Position numbers and translations under genes: made by a program. Source: Solobacterium sp. (GTDB lineage Bacteria; Bacillota_I; Bacilli_A; Erysipelotrichales; Erysipelotrichaceae). From it: a stretch of DNA of 59,161 nucleotides. Where the stretch lies: the NCBI GenBank assembly GCA_024680365.1, contig JAILCN010000143.1, positions 1-59,161 on the forward strand. Direction: 5' to 3'. This document shows, one piece after another, positions 14,212 to 17,492 of this stretch. The notes beneath the pieces were generated by a model. The model searched no databases and had not been told where the DNA came from. It was given only the letters and a program-made list of their open reading frames with translations. Position 1 is the first letter of the stretch, and each line of letters starts with the position of its first letter.

Positions 14212-14898
14212 ATGACAAAAATTTTATTTCTGGGCAACAGTCATACATATATGAATGACATGCCGTTTCTTTTCAAAGAGGTATTTGAACGTTCCTGCCG
14301 TGAAGTCTGCGACGTAACGATGCTTGCCTTTTCAGGCCGCGACCTGGAGTGGCACCGGAAAGAATATTTTTCCCTGCGTTTTGCGCTGCTGTACGGAAAC
14401 TATGACTACTGTGTGATCCAGCAGGCTGCCCATCCGTTCCCTGAAAAAAGCACGACCATGGAAAACGGCCGGAAGATCATCGATCTCTGCCGCAGGACAG
14501 GTACGATCCCGGTTCTGTATATGACCTGGGCAGAAAAAGCATATCCGGAAAACCAGAAGAAGATGATCAATGTGTACACAGCGCTTGCGGAAGAGACCGG
14601 CGCCATGCTTGCGAAAGCCGGCATCGTCTGGGAAGCTGTCCGGAAAGAAGCGCCTCAGATCGATCTGTTCTTCAAAGACGGTGAGCATGCTTCGCCATAC
14701 GGGGATCTGCTCATCGCGTCCGTGCTCTGCCGCACGCTGCGCAGAAACGTGCAGCTGAAAGCACCGGCCAGACTGATTGATTTCCATGTTCATTTTGAAA
14801 ATGAATTCCCGGAAGCTTCGTTCGGCGACGACCGCTTCTTTACCCCGGATCCGGAAGCAGTGGATACCATTCTGCGCATGGTAACGGAGCTGATCTGA
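14212..14898 (+). CDS. SGNH/GDSL-type hydrolase
   Basis: 228 aa with no signal peptide, so cytoplasmic. Block I is FLGNSHTYMNDMP, with Ser in GNSHT in place of GDS. Block III is IQQAAHP, and the catalytic Asp/His pair is in KDGEHASPYG. SGNH enzymes cleave esters of sugars, lipids or acyl groups; the substrate is unknown. It is the first gene of an operon with the ParB-like/PnrA-like fusion 25 bases downstream and the phosphoesterase after it. Confidence 0.88.
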   Translation: MTKILFLGNSHTYMNDMPFLFKEVFERSCREVCDVTMLAFSGRDLEWHRKEYFSLRFALLYGNYDYCVIQQAAHPFPEKSTTMENGRKIIDLCRRTGTIPVLYMTWAEKAYPENQKKMINVYTALAEETGAMLAKAGIVWEAVRKEAPQIDLFFKDGEHASPYGDLLIASVLCRTLRRNVQLKAPARLIDFHVHFENEFPEASFGDDRFFTPDPEAVDTILRMVTELI

Positions 14899-14923
14899 AA
14901 CAAAACAACAGGAGAAACCTACA

Positions 14924-16822
14924 ATGTCTGATGAATACGTAAAAGCGAAAAAAGCCGGTGATGCGGAATTCCGCAGAGCGATCCTGAAAGAAGAATATCC
15001 GTATATTCCTTCCCTGGATTCCCTGACGGACACCGCAAAGCTGAAACAGGTGAGGGTCGGTCTGATGCAGATCCCGGCTGAGATGATCGTCGGAACAAAG
15101 ACAGACAGCAGGCAGAATGCGTTTGCCCGCAATTTCATGCCGATCATGGACACTGATACGGAGTTCGCATATAAATGGGCCAATGTCTATCGTGTTCAGG
15201 AATCAGCCGGCATCAGCGATCCGATCCTCGTCTATGAGTACAAGCACCGTTTCTACGTGCAGGAAGGAAACAAGCGGGTATCTGTGTTCCGCTGTCTGAA
15301 AGTCCCGACTGTCACTGCTGAAGTGATCAGGATCCTGCCGGAAGAGGAAGATCCTCTGTATAAAGAATTCCTGACCTTCTTTCAGAATACTCATGTGTAT
15401 GAGATGGATTTCTCGAATATCGGCGATTACCGGAAACTGTGCCGGTACTTCAATGTGAAATGGAATACGCCGTGGCCGGAAAAGAGCGTCCTGCGTCTGC
15501 GTGCCCTGTACTATGAATTCGCGGCAGAATACAGAAAGACGGATGAAGATTCTTCTGTCAGCGACGCGTTCCTGCTGTATCTGAATGTCTTCGGACAGGA
15601 AGGCGTGCGCGGCGGCGGAAGAGCAGCACTGCGCGCAAACATACTCCGGCTTCAGAAGGAATTCCAGCTGGCAGGTGAGAAAGAAAAGATCCGGCTGGTG
15701 GAAACACCGGAAGAGGAAGAAGAGAAGAAGGGCCTGCTGGGTCTGGATCTTCTGCCGAAGCTGTCTTCGCTGAAGAGTCTGCGTGTTTCCTTCATCTATG
15801 AAAGCAGTCCGGATGTATCTGCGGATGTTTATGAACATGAGATCGGAAGGATCCTGCTGGCAAGCCGGTTTGACAGCAGAGTGAAAACCGAAAAATACGA
15901 AAACTGTGATACGAAGGAAAAACTGCAGAATGCGCTGACGAAAGCAGCCCGTGAATCAGACGTCATCTTTACGACATCACCGCTGCAGCTGGATGAAACG
16001 CTGCGCTGTGCGGTATCCTATCCGGACGTGAAGTATTTCAACTGTTCCCTGAATCAGAAGGTGACAGCGGTGCGTTCGTACGACGTGCGCATGTATGAAG
16101 CAAAGTTCCTGCTCGGCGCTGTTGCGGCTTCTCTCAGCAAGGATCATCAGCTGGCGTATCTGGCGGATTATCCTGTCTTCGGCATCATGGCTGACATCAA
16201 CGCGTTCGCGATCGGCGCCGGCATGATCGATCCGCAGTGCCGCGTCTTCCTGGCCTGGAGCGAAACGCTGGATGAAGACTGGAAGGAACAGATGAAGCGG
16301 CTCGGCATCAGAGTCTTCTGCGGCGCGGATACCTGGGATCCCAGAGTCAGCTCGACGGAATTCGGACTGTTTGAGCTGGCGGATGACGGCAGCGTGATCA
16401 ATATTGCCGCACCGGTCATCAACTGGGCTGTTTACTATGAGAAGATCATTTCCCGGATCCTTTCCAGCAATCTGAACACAGCCGGCGGCAAAGCCGTCAA
16501 CTACTGGTGGGGCATGGATGCCGGCGTGATCGACATCACCCTTTCCGGCCGGCTTCCGTATCAGACAAGAAAACTGGCGGAGCTTCTGAAACAGTCGCTG
16601 ATCAAAGGCACACTGGATCCTTTTGCCGGCGAGCTGCATGCCCAGAACGCCGTGATCCAGGATGCGTACGCGCCGAAGATGAGCAGCGATAAGATCATTG
16701 TCATGGACTGGCTGAACGACAATATCATCGGCACCCTGCCGCCGTATGCCAACTGGAGCGGACAGGCAAGGAAGATGATCGAAGTGAGCGGCGTCAGCGC
16801 TGTGAAGGCAACGGAGGAATGA
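14924..16822 (+). CDS. ParB-like domain fused to PnrA/BMP-type nucleoside-binding domain
   Basis: 632 aa, start behind AGGAGA. The N-terminal third resembles ParB/sulfiredoxin-like domains: VGLMQIPAEMIVGTK, then ISDPILVYEYKHRFYVQEGNKRVSVFRCLKVPTV, where EGNKR matches the family's EGhHR/GxxR phosphate-contacting core. A helical middle (about 160-270, ending in an acidic EEEEEKK) leads to a C-terminal domain of about 340 aa that resembles BMP/PnrA substrate-binding proteins: VSFIYESSPDVSADVYEHEIG, then LLGAVAASLSKDHQLAYLADYP, and a late WWGMDAGVIDITLSG. PnrA relatives are normally exported lipoproteins, but there is no signal peptide or lipobox here. A cytoplasmic nucleoside sensor is plausible; function unproven. 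Confidence 0.75.
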   Translation: MSDEYVKAKKAGDAEFRRAILKEEYPYIPSLDSLTDTAKLKQVRVGLMQIPAEMIVGTKTDSRQNAFARNFMPIMDTDTEFAYKWANVYRVQESAGISDPILVYEYKHRFYVQEGNKRVSVFRCLKVPTVTAEVIRILPEEEDPLYKEFLTFFQNTHVYEMDFSNIGDYRKLCRYFNVKWNTPWPEKSVLRLRALYYEFAAEYRKTDEDSSVSDAFLLYLNVFGQEGVRGGGRAALRANILRLQKEFQLAGEKEKIRLVETPEEEEEKKGLLGLDLLPKLSSLKSLRVSFIYESSPDVSADVYEHEIGRILLASRFDSRVKTEKYENCDTKEKLQNALTKAARESDVIFTTSPLQLDETLRCAVSYPDVKYFNCSLNQKVTAVRSYDVRMYEAKFLLGAVAASLSKDHQLAYLADYPVFGIMADINAFAIGAGMIDPQCRVFLAWSETLDEDWKEQMKRLGIRVFCGADTWDPRVSSTEFGLFELADDGSVINIAAPVINWAVYYEKIISRILSSNLNTAGGKAVNYWWGMDAGVIDITLSGRLPYQTRKLAELLKQSLIKGTLDPFAGELHAQNAVIQDAYAPKMSSDKIIVMDWLNDNIIGTLPPYANWSGQARKMIEVSGVSAVKATEE

Positions 16823-16826
16823 CCGT

Positions 16827-17492
16827 ATGCGGCTGCTTGTTCTGGCGGATCATGAAGAGGCGCGGATCTGGGATTACTTCAGTCCGAAGAAGACGGAAGG
16901 CGTAGACCTGATCCTTTCCTGCGGTGATCTGGATCCCGATTATCTGGAATTTCTGACGACAATGGTCAACCGGCCGCTGTTTTACGTACGCGGCAACCAC
17001 GACGGCATTTACGATACCAGAGAGCCTTTGGGCTGCGACAATATCGAAGACAAAGTCGCCAACTTCCGCGGCCTCAGGATCCTCGGACTTGGCGGCTCCT
17101 ACCGCTACCGTCCCGGCAAGGACATGTATACTGAAGCGGAAATGAAAAAACGGATCCGTCATCTGAAAGGACAGCTTGCCTTCACAAAAGGCTTTGATAT
17201 TCTTCTGACACATGCGCCGGCATATGGATACGGTGATCTGCCGGATCTGCCGCACCGCGGTTTTGAATGCTTTGACGATCTGCTCGAGACCTGGCATCCC
17301 CAGTATATGTTCCATGGGCACGTGCACATGGAATACGGAGACTTCGTCAGAGAACGGCATCATCCCTGCGGCACGACGATCATCAATGCCTACGGGTATA
17401 CGATCATCGACATCGAAGAAGGAAGCTATCCTGCCCTGGGCAAAACCGGCAGCTTCTTCTATGACTGGATGATGACAAGGAAGAAACGCTAG
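16827..17492 (+). CDS. Calcineurin-like metallophosphoesterase with altered first motif
   Basis: 221 aa, 4 bases after the upstream gene and behind GGAGG, so translationally linked. Motifs present are ILSCGDLD (GD), VRGNHDG (GNHD), LLTHAPAYGYGD (H) and FHGHVHMEYG (GHxH). The usual N-terminal DxH is replaced by VLADHEEA, with Asp and His adjacent. The change may alter metal site 1. Likely a small cytoplasmic phosphodiesterase. Being in one operon with a putative nucleoside-binding protein suggests a nucleotide or nucleotide-second-messenger substrate (inference). Confidence 0.88.
   Translation: MRLLVLADHEEARIWDYFSPKKTEGVDLILSCGDLDPDYLEFLTTMVNRPLFYVRGNHDGIYDTREPLGCDNIEDKVANFRGLRILGLGGSYRYRPGKDMYTEAEMKKRIRHLKGQLAFTKGFDILLTHAPAYGYGDLPDLPHRGFECFDDLLETWHPQYMFHGHVHMEYGDFVRERHHPCGTTIINAYGYTIIDIEEGSYPALGKTGSFFYDWMMTRKKR

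Follow-up and report, generated by a model that had tools for sequence, protein, structure and literature searches.

It has lately become clear that the ParB fold serves generally as an NTP-binding module; for most of the fusions in which it occurs, no role is known. The fold and its GxxR phosphate motif are common to ParB, Noc and KorB and to sulfiredoxin, SerK and SbnI. According to the main text of a ParB-fold survey (PMC12704722), NTP was bound by 11 of the 28 purified ParB-fold proteins screened, and mutation of the GxxR arginine to alanine abolished NTP binding in the ParB-fold proteins concerned. AtzT (6pi5), the Brucella Bmp protein (3s99) and PnrA share a different fold, that of the PnrA/BMP type I binding proteins, and class III metallophosphoesterases such as MPPED2 and YfcE have the GD, GNHD, H and GHxH motifs in common.

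Here we describe a gene from Solobacterium sp. in which a ParB/sulfiredoxin (Srx)-like and a PnrA-like domain are predicted in one polypeptide, followed by a metallophosphoesterase (MPE) gene. The window, meaning the whole stretch of DNA analysed, is 59,161 nucleotides long. Three plus-strand open reading frames of the window are separated by gaps of 25 and 4 bases, and the start codons at 14924 and 16827 are preceded by the Shine-Dalgarno-like sequences AGGAG and GGAGG, respectively. The features are as follows.

14212–14898, + strand: SGNH-hydrolase-like gene (PDB 4s1p match, motifs by eye), outside the conserved module
14924–16822, + strand: fusion of ParB/Srx-like domain, helical linker and PnrA/BMP-like domain, 632 amino acids (Pfam, PDB matches, models)
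15056–15343, + strand: ParB/sulfiredoxin-fold domain, residues 45–140 (fold search; conservation in 53 homologues)
15353–15679, + strand: all-helical linker domain, residues about 144–252, of no known family (model)
15776–16741, + strand: PnrA/BMP type I binding-protein domain, residues about 285–606 (PF02608, 6pi5/3s99, Foldseek match to AtzT)
16827–17492, + strand: MPE with Asp-x-Glu in motif I (PF00149, E=7e-11), the conserved partner gene

Domains and location of the fusion protein

The N-terminal 270 residues have no convincing Pfam family match in 14 members, and PF02195 gives no match to this part in the same 14 at E values up to 1. When a profile of the N-terminal part built from 14 relatives is compared with the PDB, sulfiredoxin and ParB are the sole matches; they are weak (E=0.037 and 0.1), with the register of the alignments correct at the GxxR motif. 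The AlphaFold2 model of the N-terminal part (mean pLDDT 84) shows a ParB/Srx fold at residues 45–140. A fold search gives Z=8.8 for Noc and 8.7 for sulfiredoxin, over 81 residues, and places Noc, ParB, KorB, sulfiredoxin, SerK and SbnI at the top. Known proteins of the ParB/Srx/SerK/SbnI type make up nearly all of the top 33 entries, and the rows above Z 4.5 comprise entries of this type and two uncharacterised structures.

The phosphate motif EGNKRVSV occupies residues 114–121. Among 53 homologues (mean identity 44%), E114, G115, K117, R118 and S120 are invariant and position 116 is N or H, the block E114-G-[N/H]-K-R-[V/A]-S being nearly invariant; EG[N/H]KR (GxxR, box II) is also retained in 12 further, mostly diverged members. 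Outside this motif, R63, E80, F81, K84 and W85 are invariant in the 53 homologues, and the box I position is taken by a conserved GT...R stretch (GTKTDSR, residues 57–63 in the window protein), the letters of which are not ParB-like. Box II reads GERR in ParB, GCHR in Srx and G[N/H]KR in the fusion. The glutamate of GERR is catalytic in ParB; this residue is Asn or His in the fusion, and ParB-style hydrolysis may therefore be absent. For the helical linker at 144–252 an HTH was considered; this region has no HTH family in Pfam and gives weak helical matches only in the fold search.

The C-terminal part matches the Pfam Bmp/PnrA family (PF02608, E=2e-15), and residues 276–606 match two purine-binding proteins of known structure, 6pi5 and 3s99 (E about 1e-28, 23–24% identity). 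In the full-length model (mean pLDDT 76), the C-terminal part adopts the AtzT/PnrA fold (Foldseek match to AtzT, E=1.6e-19). An earlier reading made from the sequence alone had staked itself on models giving a ParB-like fold at 45–140 and a PnrA fold at 280–620; the models contain both, at 45–140 and about 285–606, and on this point that reading therefore stands.

The guanine contacts reported for AtzT (PMC6834077), the nearest relative with a solved structure, were compared with the fusion family by alignment. Of the side chains that contact guanine, only Ser97 is kept in the window protein (Ser352). Glu165 of AtzT is replaced by the nearly invariant Gly420 in the 53 homologues, and the positions of Trp194, Asn218 and Asn220 are not conserved among them. 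The position of Tyr45, which stacks in AtzT, is Trp in 50 of the 53 homologues and Asp in the window protein (residue 301, window 15824–15826); the relative L004 also has Asp here. N373-C374-S375 is conserved in the family. As most AtzT contacts are gone and this triplet is conserved, the family seems, from the alignment, to have its own ligand pocket. AtzT-like guanine binding was rejected on the changed contacts, a verdict that applies to the AtzT-like reading of guanine only; a nucleoside ligand, as proposed in the earlier reading, is plausible by family. In some Oscillospirales members, the PnrA-like domain is shortened or much diverged, with the N-terminal domain and its motif kept; in L139 and L140 it is down to about 60 matching positions. 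Sensing by the C-terminal domain may therefore not be essential everywhere.

The fusion protein is very probably intracellular, as judged from its N-terminus and those of its homologues. The frame is interrupted by a stop 11 codons before the start, no signal peptide is found, and among the 53 homologues there is no lipobox and no N-terminus of strong hydrophobicity. The genome's two ordinary BMP proteins do have lipoboxes, and in genome G445 the fusion is the sole BMP-family match. Genes for ABC permeases or ATPases are absent from the window, and none recur beside the fusion in the loci of relatives. The earlier proposals that the PnrA-like domain lacks an export signal, and that the locus is a module rather than a transport system, agree with these observations.

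Pairing of the fusion with the phosphoesterase

The fusion is rare in the samples of the window's own class and phylum, where only G058 and G331 have it at full length besides the window. It is present in 113 of the 299 sampled genomes of one Lachnospiraceae family (the family of L006; 114 matches minus that of G619, which is weak and concerns another protein) and in 52 of the 295 sampled genomes of one Oscillospirales order (the order of L012). The fusion is common in gut Clostridia. Most matches lie in open frames of 540–760 amino acids, which makes the fused form the usual one. In G690, the N-terminal domain occurs a second time (G690:C1:267038-267846) with several stops in it, apparently as a decayed paralogue; the intact copy lies on another contig.

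In the window, the MPE gene begins 4 bases after the fusion gene (16822 to 16827), the spacing already noted from the sequence. Homologues with the same fusion and the same neighbour, which the sequence-only reading had suggested looking for, were found. Among 17 loci carrying the family, 16 have the MPE immediately downstream (two of these with the C-terminal part of the fusion only), as do 56 of the 60 best-scoring loci of the two samples. In one locus (L146, G575:C66, 1116–3737) the order is reversed, and the MPE ends one base before the fusion starts.

The MPE was also searched for independently of neighbourhood in 156 genomes (80 Lachnospiraceae and 76 Oscillospirales). Every fusion-bearing genome has it (29/29 and 10/10; 39/39 pooled), and fusion-less genomes have it at strong scores in only 2 of 117 cases (1/51 and 1/66). 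The pooled Fisher p value is about 1e-34, with the genomes treated as independent of relatedness. In the two genomes with the MPE alone (G512 and G770), the gene lies at a contig end, and the fusion could have been cut off there. A further weak match in a fusion-less genome (G761, E=9e-17) is probably another phosphoesterase. The two genes are unlinked in 8 of the 39 genomes (G460, G477, G491, G751, G771, G790, G794 and G811). The unlinked MPE of G460 (L131, G460:C9, 5373–9028) is located near genes that by eye resemble sigE, spoIIGA and ftsZ, probably by chance. Pairwise distances of the fusion and the MPE correlate with r=0.83 (permuted maximum 0.21), a value to which shared ancestry contributes. 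One small MAG from outside the samples (G446) has the fusion without the MPE. The conserved unit is the fusion plus the MPE.

The metal residues of the MPE (D8, G33-D34, G56-N57-H58-D59, H129, H165 and H167) are present in 50 of 50 sequences. Motif I of this unusual phosphoesterase is Asp-x-Glu in 43 of the 50 and Asp-x-His in none. The MPE also matches PDC-S10, a candidate defence protein in PADLOC (E=7e-12); a resemblance common to phosphoesterases in general probably accounts for this.

By Pfam annotation, the neighbours of the fusion gene in the window are SGNH, BrkB, MPE and GT2. The product of 14212–14898 is plausibly an SGNH hydrolase, with GNSH and DxxH motifs by eye and a match to PDB 4s1p (E=7e-8); DUF4886 reaches only E=0.19. 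The gene is probably co-transcribed with the fusion in this genome. It is absent from every related locus searched and was on this ground ruled out as a member of the module. Of the three-gene operon originally proposed, the link between fusion and MPE is borne out by the 39 of 39 co-occurrence, and the SGNH gene drops out. A third conserved gene was not found, the flanks varying over 55 loci (17 by ORF clustering, the rest by eye). No ParA gene lies beside the fusion in the window, and the MPE is the only recurring neighbour in the loci of relatives. Purine and other Rfam riboswitches were sought upstream and rejected, since neither the window nor 12 related loci contain one.

Proposed mechanism and its rivals

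The predicted folds, the missing export signal, the conserved motifs resembling active sites and the near-perfect co-occurrence are consistent with a cytoplasmic two-gene module, in which a ligand-gated NTP switch would work with a dedicated phosphoesterase. We give this reading a probability of about one half; NTP binding, the kind of ligand, which way control runs, and the activity and substrate of the MPE are predictions within it. The PnrA-like domain would close on some small molecule of the cytoplasm, which probably resembles a base or nucleoside and is not read as guanine is read by AtzT. Closure would be passed through the helical linker and alter how the ParB/Srx-fold domain binds or hydrolyses NTP. 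The MPE, as dedicated partner, would act on the same metabolite or nucleotide, or would itself be turned on or off by the fusion. The reading makes a ready prediction, that mutation of Arg118 will lead to loss of NTP binding. Against it stand the modest share of ParB-fold proteins that bound an NTP in the published screen (11 of 28), the Asn or His in place of the GERR glutamate, the largely missing AtzT contacts and the reduced C-terminal domain of some Oscillospirales members. Much more tentatively, the pair may belong to a class of small-molecule signalling systems that is new and operates inside the cells of gut Clostridia, with a sensor of the binding-protein type driving an NTP switch of the ParB fold. 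The switch would control a dedicated Asp-x-Glu MPE or be reset by it, possibly with a phosphorylated messenger being both made and destroyed.

The main rival to a ligand-gated switch is a kinase/phosphatase pair, in which the ParB/Srx-fold domain would be a small-molecule kinase like SerK or SbnI whose substrate is the molecule bound in the PnrA-like domain; the phosphate would be removed by the MPE. SerK and SbnI are among the fold matches (Z 5.4–6.9), EG[N/H]KR is at least as close to the GCHR of Srx as to the GERR of ParB, and the strict pairing with a phosphoesterase would suit such a cycle. However, ParB, Noc and Srx outscore SerK and SbnI, and it was not possible to place the SerK catalytic residues on the fusion. 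We also know of no kinase of the ParB/Srx fold that carries a PnrA-like domain, which counts against this reading, and we regard it as possible but rather unlikely.

Less probable again is a regulator of transcription or of the chromosome, with ligand sensing by the PnrA-like domain (compare LacI-type proteins and Med) controlling DNA binding by the ParB-like domain. In Foldseek, the DNA-binding proteins ParB, Noc and KorB align over 217–234 columns, into the helical region, but the rmsd over these alignments is 15–19 Å and the helical part has no HTH family. The structure 2hqb, of a BMP-type protein, bears the title of a comK transcriptional activator; beside the fusion, however, there is no conserved putative target gene apart from the MPE.

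A ParB-like nuclease paired with a phosphoesterase for phage defence appears improbable. The distribution of the fusion is patchy, as might suit a defence system, and the fusion too has a weak PADLOC match (PD-Lambda-5_A, E=0.009), but a general resemblance to phosphoesterases and to the ParB fold accounts for both PADLOC matches, and the flanks are varied and mostly housekeeping-looking rather than defence islands. That the fusion is simply a binding protein for nucleoside uptake, wrongly annotated or exported by some hidden route, can be set aside as very improbable. The C-terminal domain clearly belongs to the BMP family, but 0 of 53 homologues have a signal or lipobox where canonical paralogues of the same genome have lipoboxes, no conserved transporter genes adjoin, and G445 has no other BMP-family match.

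Comparison with known systems

A switch fold and a sensor-type domain joined in the cytoplasm, with a near-obligatory enzyme partner, make up a defined two-protein system. More than one-third of the genomes sampled from one Lachnospiraceae family have the fusion, and the standard Pfam model misses it. Databases presumably list the fusion proteins as BMP-family binding proteins. We found no paper on the fusion. Both folds are already known; fusions to BMP, PnrA or substrate-binding domains are not mentioned in the main text of the ParB-fold survey, and the search described there began from PF02195, a model that misses the fusion family (PMC12704722).

The fusions treated in that text likewise join a ParB-fold NTP-binding module to another domain. 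Relative to ParB, with which residues 45–140 share the fold and the GxxR motif, the fusion has no PF02195 match, no HTH family and no ParA neighbour, carries G[N/H]KR in place of GERR, and has gained a binding-protein domain. That domain has the fold of AtzT, Brucella Bmp and PnrA, but here it is cytoplasmic and fused, and most of the residues that contact guanine in AtzT are changed. Med and other type I binding-protein regulators (2hqb) likewise have a BMP-type domain in a regulator, whereas the domain added in the fusion is ParB/Srx-like. The MPE has the GD, GNHD, H and GHxH motifs in common with MPPED2 and YfcE, but differs from them in having Asp-x-Glu for Asp-x-His in motif I (43 of 50) and in being the dedicated partner of the fusion.
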